A stretch of 64,000 nt of DNA from Atopsyche davidsoni (taxonomy: Eukaryota > Arthropoda > Insecta > Trichoptera > Hydrobiosidae): NCBI GenBank assembly GCA_022113835.1, contig JAILWY010000023.1, forward strand, positions 4,712,001 through 4,776,000. Reading direction: 5' to 3'. Position 1 is the first letter of the stretch. Each line of letters opens with the position of its first letter. Under the pieces are notes generated by a model that made no database searches, was not told the origin of the DNA, and saw nothing but the letters and a program-made list of their open reading frames with translations. This document shows, piece by piece, positions 13,985-52,120 of this stretch. The position numbers were made by a program, and so were the translations under genes.

Positions 13985-14304
13985 CGCGTTTTTTGGGTGC
14001 TTGTTTCATGTTGTTCTGAGTCAGGCTTGCAACCAAGAAGTGGTCGACCTCGGTACGTCCAGTGGCAGAGTGGGTGGTGGTGAAACAGGATCGCATGGCT
14101 TAAGTGAGCCTTATATCGTAAGGCTTGTCCCATTTAACTTTGGAGCAGTCATGTCAAAGATACGGCCCGCGATCGCAATGTGTCACAGAAAGAAGAATCA
14201 TGTTTTTTAGAGCTTTTAGACTACACTCGATTCCTCTACGGAAGTTCTAAAATGCGCACACATTTATAAGTAATTTCAAGGGCAGCGCGTGCCTAGACAG
14301 TATT

Positions 14305-14607
14305 TTGAAAAAAAAATTTAAAGAGGTTAACGCTCTTACATTTTATACACAATATTTCAAGAGTTTGGATAACTACCCGGAATTAAAAAAGCATGCAGCA
14401 CGCATTCTGTGCATGTTTGGTAGTACCTTTTTATGTGAGCAGATGTTTTCCGTCATGAAAATAAATAAGAACAAACATCGCACAAGACTTACGAATGAAC
14501 ATCTCCAATCAATTCTTAAAATAATTACAACGAATACGATACCTGACATCAATGGGCTTGTCAAAAACAAGAGAAGTCAGGTATTTGGATCCTCAAACTC
14601 AAAATAA
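14305..14607 (+). pseudogene. hAT transposase C-terminal fragment
   Basis: About 100 codons contain SLDNYPELKKHAARIL, FGSTFLCEQMFSVMK, HRTRLTNEHLQSILKI and a terminal INGLVKNKRSQV. This is the dimerisation region at the C-terminus of hAT transposases of the ZBED/SPIN/GTF2IRD2-like group. The family protein is usually about 600 residues; the N-terminal zinc finger and catalytic D/D positions are absent. The fragment lies about 160 bp from the left terminus, so most of the gene was lost by internal deletion. Confidence 0.85.
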
Positions 14608-14737
14608 TTACCCTCTTTTATAACTTTGATATGATTTTTAACAACCCTATATTATATATATACGATGTGTGCATTCATTATTTCGGATTTTCTAAGAGAT
14701 GGCGTTACTACTATTGAACCGCATCAGGCTATACTTT

Positions 14738-14960
14738 AACACGGTGGTCCCAAACCCTGAGTCCGCGAGTGTCATGGCGCCCGCCGACCATTTTCCTGTC
14801 CGACCACAATAAAAAATTATTTAAGAAAAAAAAAAATTTTTTTTTACTAATTAAAATGAGAAATGTAAACGAAAATAAGTTAATCGATATAATTTTCAAA
14901 ATAATAATTCTTTCCAGAAAATCATAAAAAAGTCTGTTGAAATAGTATCTTATGGTGGCT
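14738..14960 (+). repeat. Dispersed hAT-type repeat, copy a (nested in the hAT element)
   Basis: It starts GGTGGTCCCAAACCCTGAGT, a hAT-like terminus, and continues CCGCGAGTGTCATGGCGCCC-GCCGACC-TTTTCCTGTCC. The segment aligns base for base, with many substitutions, to the minus strand of 46046-45640. In that copy a Penelope-derived foldback sits inside; here the corresponding site (AATCATAAAAAAGTCTGTTG, about 14920-14939) is empty. The far end is not identified. Confidence 0.75.
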
Positions 14961-15584: not shown

Positions 15585-16510
15585 TAAAAAATTAATCTGT
15601 TTCAATTGGAAGAAATAACCAGCTGAAAGTCACCGATTGCTGTGTGAAGTTTATGGTGAACATGATCCATCGCAAAAAACGTCTGAGAACTGGTTTCGAC
15701 GCTTTAACAACGGTGATTTCGATGTGGATGACAAAGAACGTCCAGGCCAACCAAAAAAATTCGAAGATGAAGAATTAGAGGCATTGCTCGATAAAGACTC
15801 GTGTCAAACGCAAGCAAAACTCGCAGAATCATTGGGAATTGATTGAGCAACAATTTCAAGACACTTAAAGCATTGGGAATGATTCAAAAGCAAGGAAATT
15901 GGATGCCACATGAATTGAAGCTGAGAGACGTCGAAAGGCGATTTTGCATTTCGGAAATGCTGCTTGAACGCCACAAAAAGAAATCATTTTTGCGTATCAT
16001 CACTGGTGATGAAAAATGGATTCGCTATATATCCTGATAAGCTAAGCGTAAAAAATTATGGGGTAAGCCCGGACATGCAACAACATCGACGGCCAGGCCA
16101 AATAAAAAGGTGTCTTCCACTATGATCTGCTGAAATCAGGCCAAACTATCACGGGCGAGTTCTACAGACACAATTGATGCGTTTGAAGCTAGCATTGGCA
16201 GAAAAACGGCCAGAATATGCGACCAGGCACGAGTCTGTAATTTTCCATCACGACAATGCTCGGACACATGTTGATCGGTTAAAACCTATTTGGAAAACAG
16301 TGAATGGGAATTTCTGCTTCACCCGTCTTATAGCCCAGACCTTGCCCCTTCCGACTACCACTTGTTACAATCGATGCAGAATGCCCTTTCTGGAATACGC
16401 TTGGAATACGATGGACAATACTTTGAATAGAATATATTGTATCAATTTTTTATAATAAAGCTCCAATTTCACGAAAAAATCCGAAAAATTTATGCACACA
16501 CCGTATATTA
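15585..16510 (+). pseudogene. mariner transposase pseudogene
   Basis: Frames read in succession give HRLLCEVYGEHDPS, NWFRRFNNGDFDVDD, ERPGQPKKFEDEELEALL, MIQKQGNWMPHELK, RDVERRF, ITGDEKWIRY, WGKPGHATTST, TGEFYRTQ-like text, FHHDNART, and (shifted) YSPDLAPSDYHLLQS. The catalytic DD34D acids can be placed in TGDEKW, HHDNAR and APSDY. It is dead: there is a stop at 15844-15846, several frameshifts, and loss of roughly 90 residues between the APSDY region and the final DGQYFE. The 3-prime end ATTTATGCACACACC at about 16490-16505 looks like the mariner terminus. It sits inside the hAT element and is therefore younger than it. Confidence 0.9.
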
Positions 16511-30532: not shown

Positions 30533-30544
30533 ATACTTTAAATT
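30533..30544 (+). repeat. Target-site duplication, left
   Basis: ATACTTTAAATT here is repeated at 37207-37218, immediately outside the composite Penelope-like insertion. The first A may belong to the element end, so the duplication is 11 or 12 bp. Confidence 0.8.
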
Positions 30545-30906
30545 AATTAATGGAACTGGTATTTATTTTGTAATACTCCATTTTATAACAATAAAATAAA
30601 ACCAAATGGTTTTGGAGACTACGTTTATTTTGCTTATAGCGAGAGCTCTTTCGCCGAACACGGCATCTTCAAGACTGATTCTATATAGAAAACACGAGTT
30701 TATACATAACAAAATCAACAAAATTACATGAGTCATAGATATTACAAATTTATGTGGAAAAAAATTGCTTCTATTGGGTGCTGTGAAACCCCATTAAAAT
30801 GACATTAACAGCAATAATTTTAATACTAAGTACTTAAATAAACTATTTTATGATGATTCCTGGCTGTCCTGGCCGCCACCTGAAAGCAATTAGTTTGGAA
30901 GCAGAA

Positions 30907-33358
30907 TCACATTGTATTTTTAAAAATATTAAGAAGGGGAGAATTATGGTTGTTAAGTTGTTCATTGATCAAAGGGAATTCTAGATTTTGGTGCTTAATT
31001 ATTTCTAATTGCTCCAAAATATTAAGTCTATAGCCTTTATTGGAAACATGAAGGAGACTTGGCTTATTATCAACATTTAACTTATGTTTACTGTCATTAA
31101 GATGTATTGCAAATTGTGAATCTAATTTATTATTTTTAAAAGAAGCCAGATGCTCTTTGTATCTTGTTGCAAAACTACGACCTGTTTGACCAATGTACAT
31201 AGCTTTGCAGTCATCACACGTTAATTTGTAGACTCCACTCTTTTGGAAGGCATCAACTTTGTCCTTACTATTTTTTTAAAAGTATTCCTAAGTTGCTTCT
31301 ATTCTTAAAGGCCATTTTAAATTCTGGTAATTGTTTGCAAATATCAAGTGAGATTTGACCAAAATATTCAATGCATCTAAACGGCTTCTCTTCATCGCTA
31401 CGGCTAACAGGGTATATCTGAATAGAGTTTTTTGCATATGATTTTTTAATAAGGATTTTATCAATAATATTATTTGGGTAACCATTACTTGCTGCAATTG
31501 ATTTTATTATTTTTAATTCTTCATTGAATGCTTCTAATTCTAGCGGTAATTTAACTAGCCGGTGTACCATGCTATAGTATGCTGCTAATTTATGTGACCA
31601 GGGGTGCATGGATTTATGATGTATTGTAGTATCAGCGAATGTCGGCTTACGATATACACTAAATTGGTGACGGTTATTTACATTTTTAATTGAAAGATCT
31701 AAAAAATTTATACTCTTATCAACTTCTTTCTCTAGTGTGAATTTAATCCGCGTATGTAAAGAATTTGCAAAATTTACAAATTTGTCCAATTGTCTCTCTG
31801 TTCCACTCCAACAAATCAAGATATCATCTACATACCTGTAGTAGTAAATGATATTTTTATCCCAGCTTGATTTTAGTAACTTCTCTTCAAACGCATCCAT
31901 GAAGCATTCTGCTATCAATGGACTTAGGTTACTTCCAATAGGAAGGCCTTCAAGTTGCTGGTAAATTGTATCATTGAATTTAAAATAGTTAGTGTCTAAA
32001 CATGCTTCTAATAACTGATACATCTCATCTATTACAATGGGTCCCAGCTTACTTTTTTCCATAATATTACGGACAATTTCCAATGATTCCTTAACAGGAA
32101 TATTGGGAAAAAGGCTAGTGACATCTAATGAAATGAATTTATAGTTCGTTTGAAGAGGTATGTCCTTGATTTTATCCACCAAGTCTAATGAGTTTATGAC
32201 ACCATGCTTCGGTTTAAAGTTAGTTAAATCTTTAAACAAAATATTTAATTTACTCGATAGTAATGATGCTGGAGTATGGTTAAAAGAGACAACCGGTCTG
32301 ATCGGGACATTTACTTTATGAATCTTGGGTAGACCATAAAGTAGAGGGGCTTTAGGGTTCATGACGATCAATGCTAATTTTTGGGGGATTTTAGGAAATA
32401 TGGCATTGCAGCTATTAACGAGTTTACGGACTCTACTAGCCAATTTAAGAGTAGGATCTTTCTTGAGGGTAATAAAATCTGAGGGATTTAAAAACGCAAA
32501 AACTTTATCCACATAGTCCTGCCTGCTCAGAACGACTACTGAGTTGCCTTTATCTGCTTTGGTTATAATTAAATTATTAAGCGTGACTTTAGTTTTAATA
32601 TTGTGAAGCTGGTCGAGTTCAATATTTTTGTAAAACACTGATTTACCTACTGATTCTAGTTCTTTCTTAATGATATTTGCAGTGACATGTTTAAGTAAAT
32701 TGCCATTCTTAGCTTTAGTTAACGCTATTTCTGTGTCTACCGCTAACGATTCTAATTGACGAGATGACACTTTTTGCGGTATACTATATTTAAAGCCTTT
32801 GTCTAAAAGAGAAAGTTCTTTAACATCAAATACGATATTACTTAAGTTAATTGTCCTCTTATAAAATTCTAATGGGGCAGTTGATTTTTCAGGTACAAGG
32901 GGAGACGACTTTGGAACCAATTGAGTGGCTTTCAAATTAACAAGTTTTTTACATTGAGTTTTATATTTTAAATAAATGCTATTATTAATTTCATCGTTGA
33001 TTTTAGTATATAAATTATCGAATTCAACAGGGTGAAGAGAAAAGGTTAATTCTGAGTGTAGTACCTTGATATATTGTAGAAGGGCGTCTCGCTTGCGGCA
33101 CCATTCTTTGGCTTCCTCTTTCAGCCAAGTCACCTTAGCTCGTCGGATAGCAATGCTGGACGACGCTGACTTCGACTTGGTACGTAATTGAACGAACTTC
33201 GGAATCACTTTCCACTTTAAACACTGCTGAACAAACCAGAAGTTTTGAACTACTGTTCTCTGCTTCAGTTTCAGTTTTCTATATAAAAATACCTGGGTGG
33301 CTATATCAGCCACCTTGATATAATTAATGGAACTGGTATTTATTTTGTAATACTCCAT
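30907..33358 (-). pseudogene. Penelope-like RT/GIY-YIG ORF, copy 1, single frameshift
   Basis: This is the same protein as the intact copy at 34436-36886, read from ATG at 33358. One extra T in a run near 31272-31278 (seven T, against six in copy 2) shifts the frame after the reverse transcriptase and connector. The ORF then stops at 31268, while the GIY-YIG endonuclease part continues in another frame down to 30907. All RT motifs, including YVDD, are intact. The defect is minimal, so the copy was functional very recently, or the extra T is a sequencing error in a homopolymer. Confidence 0.9.
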
Positions 33359-33361
33359 TTT

Positions 33362-34378
33362 ATAACAATAAAATAAAACCAAATGGTTTTGGAGACTACG
33401 TTTATTTTGCTTATAGCGAGAGCTCTTTCGCCGAACACGGCATCTTCAAGACTGATTCTATATAGAAAACACGAGTTTATACATAACAAAATCAACAAAA
33501 TTACATGAGTCATAGATATTACAAATTTATGTGGAAAAAAATTGCTTCTATTGGGTGCTGTGAAACCCCATTAAAATGACATTAACAGCAATAATTTTAA
33601 TACTAAGTACTTAAATAAACTATTTTATGATGATTCCTGGCTGTCCTGGCCGCCACCTGAAAGCAATTAGTTTGGAAGCAGAATCACATTGTATTTTTAA
33701 AAATATTAAGAAGGGGAGAATTATGGTTGTTAAGTTGTTCATTGATCAAAGGGAATTCTAGATTTTGGTGCTTAATTATTTCTAATTGCTCCAAAATATT
33801 AAGTCTATAGCCTTTATTGGAAACATGAAGGAGACTTGGCTTATTATCAACATTTAACTTATGTTTACTGTCATTAAGATGTATTGCAAATTGTGAATCT
33901 AATTTATTATTTTTAAAAGAAGCCAGATGCTCTTTGTATCTTGTTGCAAAACTACGACCTGTTTGACCAATGTACATAGCTTTGCAGTCATCACACGTTA
34001 ATTTGTAGACTCCACTCTTTTGGAAGGCATCAACTTTGTCCTTACTATTTTTTAAAAGTATTCCTAAGTTGCTTCTATTCTTAAAGGCCATTTTAAATTC
34101 TGGTAATTGTTTGCAAATATCAAGTGAGATTTGACCAAAATATTCAATGCATCTAAACGGCTTCTCTTCATCGCTACGGCTAACAGGGTATATCTGAATA
34201 GAGTTTTTTGCATATGATTTTTTAATAAGGATTTTATCAATAATATTATTTGGGTAACCATTACTTGCTGCAATTGATTTTATTATTTTTAATTCTTCAT
34301 TGAATGCTTCTAATTCTAGCGGTAATTTAACTAGCCGGTGTACCATGCTATAGTATGCTGCTAATTTATGTGACCAGG
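33362..34378 (-). mobile_element. Penelope-like copy 2, 5-prime truncated
   Basis: This contains the 3-prime terminal region and coding sequence from the stop at 33684 up to about 34376: the end of the RT region, the connector and the full GIY-YIG domain (GVYKLTCDDCKAMYIGQTGR). It lies head-to-tail with copy 1 on the same strand. At 34378 (TGTGACCAGGG) it stops abruptly and is joined, through a short duplicated filler TAAACGTAGA, to the inverted 5-prime end of copy 3. This tandem-plus-inverted arrangement is known for Penelope elements. Confidence 0.88.
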
Positions 34379-34435
34379 GTAAACGTAGATAAACGTAGTC
34401 TCCAAAACCATTTGGTTTTATTTTATTGTTATAAA

Positions 34436-36886
34436 ATGGAGTATTACAAAATAAATACCAGTTCCATTAATTATATCAAGGTGGCTGATATAGCCACCCA
34501 GGTATTTTTATATAGAAAACTGAAACTGAAGCAGAGAACAGTAGTTCAAAACTTCTGGTTTGTTCAGCAGTGTTTAAAGTGGAAAGTGATTCCGAAGTTC
34601 GTTCAATTACGTACCAAGTCGAAGTCAGCGTCGTCCAGCATTGCTATCCGACGAGCTAAGGTGACTTGGCTGAAAGAGGAAGCCAAAGAATGGTGCCGCA
34701 AGCGAGACGCCCTTCTACAATATATCAAGGTACTACACTCAGAATTAACCTTTTCTCTTCACCCTGTTGAATTCGATAATTTATATACTAAAATCAACGA
34801 TGAAATTAATAATAGCATTTATTTAAAATATAAAACTCAATGTAAAAAACTTGTTAATTTGAAAGCCACTCAATTGGTTCCAAAGTCGTCTCCCCTTGTA
34901 CCTGAAAAATCAACTGCCCCATTAGAATTTTATAAGAGGACAATTAACTTAAGTAATATCGTATTTGATGTTAAAGAACTTTCTCTTTTAGACAAAGGCT
35001 TTAAATATAGTATACCGCAAAAAGTGTCATCTCGTCAATTAGAATCGTTAGCGGTAGACACAGAAATAGCGTTAACTAAAGCTAAGAATGGCAATTTACT
35101 TAAACATGTCACTGCAAATATCATTAAGAAAGAACTAGAATCAGTAGGTAAATCAGTGTTTTACAAAAATATTGAACTCGACCAGCTTCACAATATTAAA
35201 ACTAAAGTCACGCTTAATAATTTAATTATAACCAAAGCAGATAAAGGCAACTCAGTAGTCGTTCTGAGCAGGCAGGACTATGTGGATAAAGTTTTTGCGT
35301 TTTTAAATCCCTCAGATTTTATTACCCTCAAGAAAGATCCTACTCTTAAATTGGCTAGTAGAGTCCGTAAACTCGTTAATAGCTGCAATGCCATATTTCC
35401 TAAAATCCCCCAAAAATTAGCATTGATCGTCATGAACCCTAAAGCCCCTCTACTTTATGGTCTACCCAAGATTCATAAAGTAAATGTCCCGATCAGACCG
35501 GTTGTCTCTTTTAACCATACTCCAGCATCATTACTATCGAGTAAATTAAATATTTTGTTTAAAGATTTAACTAACTTTAAACCGAAGCATGGTGTCATAA
35601 ACTCATTAGACTTGGTGGATAAAATCAAGGACATACCTCTTCAAACGAACTATAAATTCATTTCATTAGATGTCACTAGCCTTTTTCCCAATATTCCTGT
35701 TAAGGAATCATTGGAAATTGTCCGTAATATTATGGAAAAAAGTAAGCTGGGACCCATTGTAATAGATGAGATGTATCAGTTATTAGAAGCATGTTTAGAC
35801 ACTAACTATTTTAAATTCAATGATACAATTTACCAGCAACTTGAAGGCCTTCCTATTGGAAGTAACCTAAGTCCATTGATAGCAGAATGCTTCATGGATG
35901 CGTTTGAAGAGAAGTTACTAAAATCAAGCTGGGATAAAAATATCATTTACTACTACAGGTATGTAGATGATATCTTGATTTGTTGGAGTGGAACAGAGAG
36001 ACAATTGGACAAATTTGTAAATTTTGCAAATTCTTTACATACGCGGATTAAATTCACACTAGAGAAAGAAGTTGATAAGAGTATAAATTTTTTAGATCTT
36101 TCAATTAAAAATGTAAATAACCGTCACCAATTTAGTGTATATCGTAAGCCGACATTCGCTGATACTACAATACATCATAAATCCATGCACCCCTGGTCAC
36201 ATAAATTAGCAGCATACTATAGCATGGTACACCGGCTAGTTAAATTACCGCTAGAATTAGAAGCATTCAATGAAGAATTAAAAATAATAAAATCAATTGC
36301 AGCAAGTAATGGTTACCCAAATAATATTATTGATAAAATCCTTATTAAAAAATCATATGCAAAAAACTCTATTCAGATATACCCTGTTAGCCGTAGCGAT
36401 GAAGAGAAGCCGTTTAGATGCATTGAATATTTTGGTCAAATCTCACTTGATATTTGCAAACAATTACCAGAATTTAAAATGGCCTTTAAGAATAGAAGCA
36501 ACTTAGGAATACTTTTAAAAAATAGTAAGGACAAAGTTGATGCCTTCCAAAAGAGTGGAGTCTACAAATTAACGTGTGATGACTGCAAAGCTATGTACAT
36601 TGGTCAAACAGGTCGTAGTTTTGCAACAAGATACAAAGAGCATCTGGCTTCTTTTAAAAATAATAAATTAGATTCACAATTTGCAATACATCTTAATGAC
36701 AGTAAACATAAGTTAAATGTTGATAATAAGCCAAGTCTCCTTCATGTTTCCAATAAAGGCTATAGACTTAATATTTTGGAGCAATTAGAAATAATTAAGC
36801 ACCAAAATCTAGAATTCCCTTTGATCAATGAACAACTTAACAACCATAATTCTCCCCTTCTTAATATTTTTAAAAATACAATGTGA
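34436..36886 (+). CDS. Penelope-like reverse transcriptase with GIY-YIG endonuclease (intact)
   Basis: The 816-residue protein copies element RNA into DNA at a cut made by its own endonuclease. The N-terminal part (about 1-320) is basic. RT core motifs: LYGLPKIHK (Y about 341), SLDVTSLFPNIPV (D about 412, first catalytic acid), LEGLPIGSNLSPLIAECF, YRYVDDILI (YVDD 509-512, catalytic pair) and INFLDLSIK. The GIY-YIG domain has GVY at about 708-710 and YIG at about 721, with the following R and H of GRSFATRYKEHL. The length fits canonical Penelope proteins. I chose ATG 34436 because it lies in sequence shared by all copies; an upstream in-frame ATG at 34355 lies in the inverted neighbour. No stop or frameshift is seen, so it is potentially active. 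Confidence 0.93.
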   Translation: MEYYKINTSSINYIKVADIATQVFLYRKLKLKQRTVVQNFWFVQQCLKWKVIPKFVQLRTKSKSASSSIAIRRAKVTWLKEEAKEWCRKRDALLQYIKVLHSELTFSLHPVEFDNLYTKINDEINNSIYLKYKTQCKKLVNLKATQLVPKSSPLVPEKSTAPLEFYKRTINLSNIVFDVKELSLLDKGFKYSIPQKVSSRQLESLAVDTEIALTKAKNGNLLKHVTANIIKKELESVGKSVFYKNIELDQLHNIKTKVTLNNLIITKADKGNSVVVLSRQDYVDKVFAFLNPSDFITLKKDPTLKLASRVRKLVNSCNAIFPKIPQKLALIVMNPKAPLLYGLPKIHKVNVPIRPVVSFNHTPASLLSSKLNILFKDLTNFKPKHGVINSLDLVDKIKDIPLQTNYKFISLDVTSLFPNIPVKESLEIVRNIMEKSKLGPIVIDEMYQLLEACLDTNYFKFNDTIYQQLEGLPIGSNLSPLIAECFMDAFEEKLLKSSWDKNIIYYYRYVDDILICWSGTERQLDKFVNFANSLHTRIKFTLEKEVDKSINFLDLSIKNVNNRHQFSVYRKPTFADTTIHHKSMHPWSHKLAAYYSMVHRLVKLPLELEAFNEELKIIKSIAASNGYPNNIIDKILIKKSYAKNSIQIYPVSRSDEEKPFRCIEYFGQISLDICKQLPEFKMAFKNRSNLGILLKNSKDKVDAFQKSGVYKLTCDDCKAMYIGQTGRSFATRYKEHLASFKNNKLDSQFAIHLNDSKHKLNVDNKPSLLHVSNKGYRLNILEQLEIIKHQNLEFPLINEQLNNHNSPLLNIFKNTM

Positions 36887-37110
36887 TTCTGCTTCCAAAC
36901 TAATTGCTTTCAGGTGGCGGCCAGGACAGCCAGGAATCATCATAAAATAGTTTATTTAAGTACTTAGTATTAAAATTATTGCTGTTAATGTCATTTTAAT
37001 GGGGTTTCACAGCACCCAATAGAAGCAATTTTTTTCCACATAAATTTGTAATATCTATGACTCATGTAATTTTGTTGATTTTGTTATGTATAAACTCGTG
37101 TTTTCTATAT

Positions 37111-37160
37111 AGAATCAGTCTTGAAGATGCCGTGTTCGGCGAAAGAGCTCTCGCTATAAG
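37111..37160 (+). ncRNA. Hammerhead-ribozyme-like motif in the Penelope terminal repeat
   Basis: Penelope-like elements are known to carry hammerhead motifs in their pseudo-LTRs. Here CTTGAAGA (37120-37127) stands where CCTGANGA is expected. It is followed by a perfect 4-bp stem II (GCCG-TGTT-CGGC, 37129-37140), GAAA (37141-37144), a palindromic short stem III (AGAGCTCT, 37144-37151) and C at 37152 as the candidate cleavage base. Stem I can form from TATAG before and CTATA after. Core position C3 reads T, which should reduce or abolish cleavage. The same motif lies on the minus strand at about 30637-30680, 33412-33455 and 45769-45812. Confidence 0.6.
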
Positions 37161-37206
37161 CAAAATAAACGTAGTCTCCAAAACCATTTGGTTTTATTTT
37201 ATTGTT

Positions 37207-37218
37207 ATACTTTAAATT
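37207..37218 (+). repeat. Target-site duplication, right
   Basis: ATACTTTAAATT, the same 12 bases as 30533-30544, directly follows the plus-strand end TTATTTTATTGTT of Penelope copy 3. After it the sequence is ordinary AT-rich DNA. Confidence 0.8.
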
Positions 37219-45128: not shown

Positions 45129-45575
45129 TGACTTTCACATAGCTTTAACCAACGCAAAAATCACAGATAAACTTTCACATAGCTTTCATCTCACTTTTAC
45201 GACTGCAAAAATATCAAATAGACTTTCACATAGGTTTCACCATACTTTTACCAACGCAAAAATCTCAGATAGACTTTCACATAGCTTTCACTTCACTTTT
45301 ACTACCGCAAAAATATTAAATAGACTTTCACATAGGTTTCACCTTACTTTTACCAACGCAAAAATCTCAGATAGACTTTCACATAGCTTTCACTTCACTT
45401 TTACTACCGCAAAAATATCAAATAGACTTTCACATAGGTTTCACCTTACTTTTACCAACGCAAAAATCTCAGATATACTTTCACATAGGTTTCACCTCAC
45501 TTTTACTACCGCAAAAATATCAGATAGACTTTCACATTGCTTTCATTTCACATGTACTACTGCAAAAATATCAGA
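45129..45575 (+). repeat. 51-bp minisatellite, alternating two monomer types
   Basis: ACTTTCACATAG recurs at 45171, 45222, 45273, 45324, 45375, 45426, 45477 and 45528, almost exactly every 51 bp, with a shorter first unit at 45131. Monomers alternate between one with CCAACGCAAAAATCTCAGAT and one with CTACCGCAAAAATAT-AAAT, so the higher-order period is 102 bp. The outer units are the most diverged, as expected for an array homogenised at its centre. Confidence 0.93.
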
Positions 45576-45634
45576 TTTATATTTTTTCAGCATCTTTTCC
45601 ATCAAGTCTCTGAACGTTATTACAGAGAAGGTCA

Positions 45635-46046
45635 CAAATTCACCTATAAGATGCTATTTCAACAGGCCTATATATAATTAATGGAACTGGTATTTATTTT
45701 GTAATACTCCATTTTATTATAATAAAATAAAGCCAAATGGTTTTGGAGACTACGTTAATTTCACTATTAGCGAGAGCTCTTTCGCTGAACACGGCATCTT
45801 CAAGACTCGCGAAATAGTGAAATTAACGTAGTCTCCAAAACCATTTGGTTTTATTTTATTATAATAAAGGCCCATATATGATTTTCTGGAATGAAGTATT
45901 ATTTTGAGAATTATAACAATATAATTATTTTCGCTTATATTTCTCTGTTTAATAACTGAATACTATTTTTTTTCATAAAATTTTATTTTAAACGGCGGGA
46001 CAGGTAAATCGGTCGTCGGGTGCCACGGTGCCCGCGGGCATAGGGT
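45635..46046 (-). repeat. Dispersed hAT-type repeat, copy b, carrying a Penelope-derived insert
   Basis: On the minus strand it starts at about 46046 with CAGTGGTCCCCGACCCTATG, then CCCGCGGGCACCGTGGCACC, and follows copy a (14738-14960) with substitutions through TCCAGAAAATCAT. The alignment is interrupted by the foldback element at 45676-45868 and resumes with GTTGAAATAGCATCTTATAG. It is therefore older than the Penelope-derived insert. No 8-bp target duplication of its own was found. Confidence 0.75.
45676..45868 (-). mobile_element. Miniature Penelope-derived foldback element
   Basis: About 190 bp, flanked by GGCCTATATAT (45665-45675) and GGCCCATATAT (45869-45879), a target duplication with one mismatch. 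Its left end AATTAATGGAACTGGTATTT and right end CCATTTGGTTTTATTTTATT are the same outer ends as those of the 6.7-kb composite insertion. Between them is a 48-bp near-perfect inverted repeat (45721-45768 and 45813-45860) around the hammerhead-like core (45769-45812, minus strand). It has no coding capacity and must have been mobilised by proteins of another copy. Copy a of the host repeat preserves the empty site. Confidence 0.85.
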
Positions 46047-46068
46047 CGGGGACCACTGGTGTAGTGAG

Positions 46069-52044: not shown

Positions 52045-52120
52045 GTGATTTGTGTGGGATTTGAACCCACAACCCCAAGCTTACATGGCCGGTGCATTAC
52101 CAATTATACCAAAAATTCTT
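52045..52120 (-). pseudogene. tRNA-Thr(UGU)-like relic or tRNA-derived SINE head
   Basis: On the minus strand an A box TGGTATAATTGG (52111-52100) and a B box GGTTCAAATCC (52067-52057) stand at tRNA spacing, with a perfect 5-bp T stem (GTGGG/CCCAC). The anticodon region CATGTAA resembles the CTTGTAA loop of threonine tRNAs, with the invariant T33 replaced by A. The anticodon stem has mismatches, and the 5-prime acceptor side does not pair with the 3-prime side. It is therefore not a functional tRNA; a pseudogene or SINE head is more likely. Confidence 0.6.

Follow-up and report, generated by a model that had tools for sequence, protein, structure and literature searches.

Known elements and the insert in the window

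MITEs and foldback elements are short, possess inverted repeats and are bordered by target duplications. Among Penelope-like elements (PLEs), members of the Penelope/Poseidon group such as Pen2a_Av of Adineta carry terminal repeats (pLTRs) with an Inr-like motif, an added inverted pLTR, an optional 31-bp tail on one of the inverted pLTRs, solo pLTRs, and target duplications of 8–10 bp; the available text of that report infers self-priming, perhaps with an antisense template, and leaves undecided both the choice between sense and antisense template and the role of self-priming (PMC3846280). For PAc, a Poseidon element of Anolis carolinensis, the accessible sections of PMC11167929 describe a protein that in vitro cuts and extends both strands of AT-rich targets, reverse transcription (RT) that starts internally at two adjacent sites, the stretch between them being the tail, start sites that are alike on both strands, and a hammerhead near the ORF start. 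Metazoan retrozymes, according to the portion of PMC7229834 available, are small non-autonomous elements with a type I hammerhead, occur as tandem repeats and circRNAs, and are perhaps mobilised by PLEs.

The window, that is, the whole 64,000-nt stretch analysed, contains a 193-bp foldback insert that is very probably one of many "strong-stop" insertions (cDNAs extended to the RNA 5′ end) of an autonomous PLE, most of them made independently. It shares with the Penelope/Poseidon elements the pLTR-derived inverted ends, the Inr-like motif, the tail and the target duplication. As far as the available part of PMC3846280 shows, its inserts either cover the ORF or host genes or consist of a solo pLTR, whereas those analysed here have two arms of about 45–95 nt plus a tail, the inner ends of the arms form a wall at the Inr, and a single tail is present throughout (63 of 63 loci). 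PAc is alike in its internal RT start, tail, two-strand cutting and extension, AT-rich targets and hammerhead position; it differs in that it was studied in vitro, in that neither an RNA 5′-end stop nor a pairing of one start site with each end is reported in the sections seen, and in that its hammerhead keeps C3, where the segment here has U (PMC11167929). The likeness to retrozymes lies in small size, non-autonomy, a type I hammerhead-like segment and perhaps mobilisation by PLEs, whereas the loci here are single inverted pairs and form no replicating family; tandem units of ~170–400 nt with a type I hammerhead were absent from the 27 aligned loci and the further loci that were read. MITEs and foldback elements share the shortness, the inverted repeats and the duplications; unlike in MITEs, the 37-nt tail is at one end only and the interior is new at most loci. 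Inverted ends and an optional tail are thus already known for PLEs, as are the other individual pieces, whereas novelty seems to lie in the strong-stop class and in the strictness of the one-tail rule. The literature searched, mainly outside the subscription journals, contained no account of strong-stop PLE inserts or of double-ended ones that lack an ORF, and neither is treated in the accessible part of PMC12910113.

Structure of the insert and of the composite element

Table 1 Coordinates of PLE-related features in the window
Feature	Position	Strand	Basis or remark
Host-repeat sister with empty site	14744..14957	-	Alignment
Left target duplication of composite, 12 bp, perfect (ATACTTTAAATT)	30533..30544
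Long inverted/tandem PLE insert (composite), of the same kind as the 193-bp insert	30545..37206		Tail at left end only
PLE ORF as listed, 843 aa	34355..36886	+	RVT_1 and weak GIY-YIG match
Right target duplication of composite, 12 bp, perfect	37207..37218
Left target duplication GGCCTATATAT	45665..45675		Flank comparison
Miniature double-ended PLE insert, 193 bp (L048)	45676..45868	-	Arms and shared ends
37-nt tail between two inferred RT start sites	45676..45712	-	One side only
Tail-bearing arm	45713..45807	-	L048, tail-arm end offset 0
Hammerhead-like segment, RNA +1 to +37 (UUGAAGA ... GAAA GAGCUC UC)	45771..45807	-	Inspection
5-nt filler CGCGA at inner joint	45808..45812		L048
Tailless arm, inverted second copy	45813..45868	+	L048, inner offset -39
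Right target duplication GGCCCATATAT	45869..45879		Flank comparison

The complementary parts of the two arms (45713–45768 and 45813–45868) are 56 nt each, 98% complementary and separated by 44 nt, and the predicted RNA fold of the minus strand, which is the PLE sense strand, reached -91.9 kcal/mol (z -20), a value equalled by 0 of 200 shuffles. T45807 is the complement of the inferred RNA +1, and the 37-nt tail includes the ATG region of the PLE ORF. The target duplication matched at 10 of 11 positions; when an ambiguous A is counted, as in the paired-flank scoring, its length becomes 12 bp with 1 mismatch. The left end AATTAATGGAACTGGTATTT recurs at 30545 and 33322 and, inverted, at 34453, while the right end CCATTTGGTTTTATTTTATT recurs at 34408 and 37184 and, inverted, at 30590 and 33367. 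The host-repeat sister aligned across the insertion point with neither the insert nor a second copy of the duplication, the right flank being 74.7% identical over 186 bp and the left 92% over only 25 bp (E 0.003). The length of 190 bp given in the first-pass annotation is corrected here to 193 bp; its foldback structure, near-perfect 11-bp target duplication, outer ends common to insert and composite, and empty site in the host-repeat sister were all reproduced by these comparisons.

The composite (6.66 kb) consists of one full and one partial minus-strand unit, head-to-head with a plus-strand unit that lies in the 843-aa ORF, the true start of which is probably later than listed. The ORF matched RVT_1 with an E value of 3e-15 and GIY-YIG with 0.005 for the whole ORF and 0.00045 for its C-terminal part, both GIY-YIG matches being under Pfam's cut-off. 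In a list of 120 out of 1004 relatives, butterfly proteins were the closest named entries, those of Euphydryas and Parnassius sharing 44–45% identity across the whole query. RT and GIY-YIG endonuclease in one ORF of the related long copies, pLTR-type terminal repeats with partial tandem and inverted copies, an optional tail of 30–40 bp at one end (37 nt here), and a target duplication are all characters by which a PLE is recognised, and all four were observed here. The PLE origin assigned to the insert in the first pass agrees with its shared ends, this ORF, the tail and the duplication.

Copies in the genome and their target duplications

A genome BLAST with the insert yielded at least 87 matches (40 of 990 candidates scored), and the tail gave 688 hits. 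Forty loci were retrieved and the 27 mini loci among them aligned; all 27 were bordered by a direct repeat of 10–20 bp, as scored in a best-of search that had no control of its own. Exact patterns, which fixed only 12 + 12 arm bases with the middle free and the tail outside the pattern, found 31 loci with gaps of 55–85, 19 with gaps of 25–55 (2 of them shared) and 101 with gaps of 86–116, whereas reversed-pattern controls found 0 in each of the three gap classes. This gives at least 149 distinct loci (31 + 19 - 2 + 101), at least 7 of which copy one passenger event described below. All 48 loci of the first two patterns and 50 of the 101 loci of the third were analysed.

When 60 loci were given for border scoring, both borders were found for 59, and 54 of these possessed a direct repeat of 9–19 bp at a threshold score of at least 9. 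The duplications were mostly 12 or 13 bp and 83% A+T, with 77% in the flanks and 66% in the window; the score was reached by 41 of 46 true loci versus 22 of 2070 mispaired flanks. Five single-arm loci were inspected by eye: L032 and L040 end at RNA +1 and have an 11-bp duplication, L036, a read-through insert, has a duplication, and no clear duplication was seen at L029 and L038. The first-pass annotation had regarded the insert as a mere deletion derivative should it be single-copy or lack target duplications elsewhere; it proved to be multicopy, with the same two ends and with border repeats at most loci.

Presence of one tail per insert

Exactly one tail was present at every one of the 63 loci checked, 60 of which are independent, the passenger copies L088 and L091–L093 being counted once. 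The script recorded it at 47 of 48 loci; at the remaining one, L056, a tail with an internal deletion was seen by eye in the right flank, and the 15 further loci all agreed. The search patterns do not include the tail, and free choice at each end would give one tail in at most half of the loci. One tail each was also found in L030, L031, L033, L034, L035 (twice), L037 and L041, which had been found with a tail-containing query, and in the composite.

Inner ends of the arms

Inner ends were measured from the A of AGTCTTGAAG (offset 0) for 184 arms at 92 loci, treated as independent after six listed repeats of the passenger joint were left out; the two sets of arm ends were scored with slightly different mismatch costs. 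Forty-eight ends were located at exactly 0 and 33 at -1 to -3, with 11 at +1 to +4, which are probably mostly chance or microhomology letters, and 2 beyond +4. One of the latter two (C6:9204500, +26) is true read-through and the other (L083, +6) an overlap; C13:3071987 also has upstream PLE letters, counted as filler. Very long arms are unsampled owing to the gap limits of the patterns, and longer read-through inserts exist (L030, L034–L037), which would derive from RNAs with a start farther upstream.

The arthropod initiator has the consensus TCAKTY. The wall base is the A of TCAGTC in the A and B types or of TCAGTT in the C type, both of which we take to be matches to this initiator, and on these sequence grounds it would most simply mark the 5′ start of the sense PLE RNA. 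The base following the arms that end at 0 and are succeeded by filler (n = 32) was C in 18, T in 11 and A in 3, with G excluded by definition and P = 0.006 for C against an arbitrary one third; this excess of C hints at a copied cap and is suggestive only.

Two smaller groups of ends were observed. Seventeen of the 184 arms end at -46 to -48, at ACGTTTATT/ACGTTAATT; both arms end near there in 7 of 48 loci, with AT-rich filler, and the plus-strand copy in the composite starts near the same position (34389). This cluster may partly reflect the pattern edge at -51; candidates for its origin are a further RT stop, the end of an RNA and microhomology at AATT. The second group comprises 25 of the 184 ends, which lie at -33 to -39 and surround the predicted hammerhead site. 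The tail arm reached 0 in 10 of the first 48 loci, and the tailless arm then ended at -33 to -39 in 9 of the 10, in a set whose gap limits favour ends at -47 to -17. We read these ends as a joining preference, consistent with the ribozyme mutants in the available part of PMC11167929.

Hammerhead-like segment

The hammerhead core reads C3 U4 G5 A6 N G8 A9 together with GAAA. By this motif, the segment at 45771–45807, corresponding to RNA +1 to about +37, is what we take to be hammerhead-like: it has stem II GCCG/CGGC, GAAA, a GAGCUC palindrome and no looped stem III. Minimal PLE hammerhead forms likewise lack a looped stem III, according to the accessible text of PMC6155905, and the hammerhead needs C3 and G8, according to that of PMC11167929. 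The core here is CUUGAAGA in the A and B types and UUUGAAGA in the C type, with U at C3, which is rescued only by allowing an inserted U and then only in the A and B types; the copy in the window also breaks one stem II pair. No Rfam hammerhead was matched at E ≤ 10 in 226 and 331 bases, although the minimal forms of PLEs may escape the models. The insert gave 33 Rfam matches up to E 10, none reaching the gathering score, the top-scoring ones being to miRNA models, in which any long hairpin scores well; over the whole window only a tRNA was found at the gathering threshold. The predicted cleavage site lies at -36, where 4 of 184 arms end and no peak is seen. The label "ribozyme-bearing" given in the first pass is thus weakly supported. 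At 37127–37159 (+) and the equivalent positions, a short ORF (ATG CCG ... TAA) lies within the segment, upstream of the main PLE ORF.

Joints, arm lengths and subfamilies

The alignment of 27 copies showed constant outer ends, whereas joints, fillers and arm lengths differed and the two arms changed subfamily together. Among the 92 loci, 24 joints are overlapping (microhomology), 8 abutting and 60 have filler with a median length of 8.5 nt. Some fillers copy nearby letters (L031, L033 and L041), which resembles polymerase-theta joining. Some joints are palindromic, such as those at L054 (GGCATGCC), L078 (TTAGCTAA) and L035 (ACGTTAATTAACGT), as annealing of two strands of the same polarity requires. 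The longer arm was the tailless one in 22 of 48 loci and the tail-bearing one in 18, with 8 equal; a difference of at least 10 nt was in favour of the tailless arm in 19 and of the tail arm in 15.

Subfamily labels, crude for short arms, agreed between the two arms in 85 of 92 loci versus a mean of 30.5 and a maximum of 48 in 10,000 shuffles. A source common to both arms beyond the subfamily was not evident from arm similarity (3.0 mismatches of 55 within 33 loci versus 3.7 between 346 same-subfamily pairs) or from private variants (1 in both arms versus 30 in a single arm, 25 loci).

Two joints each occur in 7 of the 50 listed third-pattern loci. One is a 2-nt microhomology present in subfamilies A, B and E, and the B copies with the same joint may include a small sub-family. 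The other, designated the passenger joint, is also found in L039; six of these eight loci (L028, L039, L088 and L091–L093, flanks examined) lie inside one host repeat, and the other two with this joint are C10:4281126 and C10:10754977. Matches of this repeat to L088 span 1.3–2.3 kb with 89–99.6% identity, and the mini insert is copied along with it. The repeat is mariner-like by eye, its Pfam Transposase_1 match (E 0.005) being below the cut-off.

Possible mode of insertion

In the scheme that we favour, the PLE would be transcribed from the initiator in its own pLTR, +1 being the A of TCAGTC/T, and the PLE enzyme would make staggered cuts leaving ~12–13-nt 3′ overhangs in AT-rich DNA. Both target 3′ ends would then prime RT of the sense RNA at internal sites 37 nt apart, one at about +132, producing the 37-nt tail, and the other at about +95, producing the tailless end; each cDNA is attached to a 3′ end that bears the duplication, which points to 3′ overhangs and to priming by both. 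The two cDNAs would extend towards the 5′ end of the RNA, where many stop exactly, and their ends, being of the same polarity, would be joined through short microhomology or filler, while the ends of tailless arms at -33 to -39 would be left to trimming or joining. The resulting foldback would have constant outer ends and a single tail, its inner joint would vary from insert to insert, and a target duplication would border it. The genomic copies show the constant outer ends, the single tail, the wall of inner ends at +1, the differing joints, the duplications and the matched subfamilies; from these we infer that the (capped) 5′ end of an RNA forms the wall, that both strands prime in vivo, and by which route the ends are joined.

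A narrower proposal, held tentatively and at slightly less than an even chance, is that one RNA serves both ends, its two start sites each being used once, one per cut strand. If true, it would explain the single tail at all 63 loci, the matched subfamilies and the frequency of inverted PLE ends, and would amount to paired two-site target-primed RT with a capped sense transcript as template, in contrast to LINE/R2, where the scheme involves one strand. Since the accessible part of PMC11167929 reports no strand difference in start site, strict pairing of the sites is not predicted by that paper. The present loci appear to join the pictures given in the available parts of PMC3846280 and PMC11167929, with a different start site for each end.

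The differences among loci in joints, fillers and arm lengths, together with arms that match in subfamily, indicate mostly separate products of autonomous PLEs. The first-pass annotation had instead seen a MITE-like non-autonomous family, in which one founder foldback is amplified in trans by PLE proteins. The many copies, the shared outer ends and the target duplication of each copy stand; amplification from a founder does not, because the 27-copy alignment lacks a common internal structure, inner junctions and fillers vary by locus, both arms switch subfamily jointly, and the recurrent joints are either a 2-nt microhomology found in A, B and E or, at the loci with flanks examined, a passenger in a host repeat. 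Such a founder is highly improbable, and repeated de novo formation fits better. Deletion of the interior of full composite elements would also leave both outer ends shared with the composite, yet random deletions would not pile 48 of 184 ends at +1 with 2 beyond offset +4, and single-arm inserts with duplications likewise end at +1; we give this origin hardly any credence.

Matched arms and hairpins would also result if a single cDNA from the tail site folded back, copied itself and stopped before the tail, and self-priming has been proposed for Adineta PLEs in the available text of PMC3846280. Under such snap-back the tail arm should never be shorter than its partner, whereas the tailless arm was longer in 22 of 48 loci, which a single folded-back cDNA from the tail could not yield; moreover, it would leave unexplained why copying should always halt precisely at the tailless RT site. 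Snap-back was rejected on arm lengths and is unlikely. A hammerhead-cleaved RNA or a retrozyme-like circle could be the template for at least one arm, considering that the segment looks like a type I hammerhead of minimal form, that 25 of 184 ends fall at -33 to -39 around the predicted -36 site, and that 9 of 10 tailless arms with a partner at +1 end there in the first 48 loci. Against this, ends at -36 number 4 of 184 within a spread while 48 are at +1, C3 is U, no Rfam hammerhead matched, the inserts are not tandem, and ribozyme mutants insert normally in vitro in the sections available of PMC11167929. We consider a cleaved template very unlikely, and as the main template it was rejected for want of a peak at -36, although ends scatter nearby.

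The target-primed reading needs no snap-back; its template looks like a sense RNA that begins at the initiator. The inserts suggest where copying begins and ends in PLE integration; they favour a sense template from the pLTR initiator and two cDNAs over snap-back, speak against hammerhead-cleaved RNA as the main template, and make the model of one RNA with two sites testable.

Other features of the window

A tandem repeat of ~51 bp (TTTCACATAGGTTTCACC...) is located at 45132–45580, directly left of the host repeat. The host repeat itself (45880–46060 and 14744–14926) contains a GC-rich stretch of the GGCGGGACAGG type, its two copies in the window being ~75% identical. A tRNA-like match of 39.9 bits lies on the minus strand at 52046–52118. 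By eye and from familiar motifs, 14000–14608 and 15600–15980 are presumably remnants of hAT-like and mariner-like transposases.
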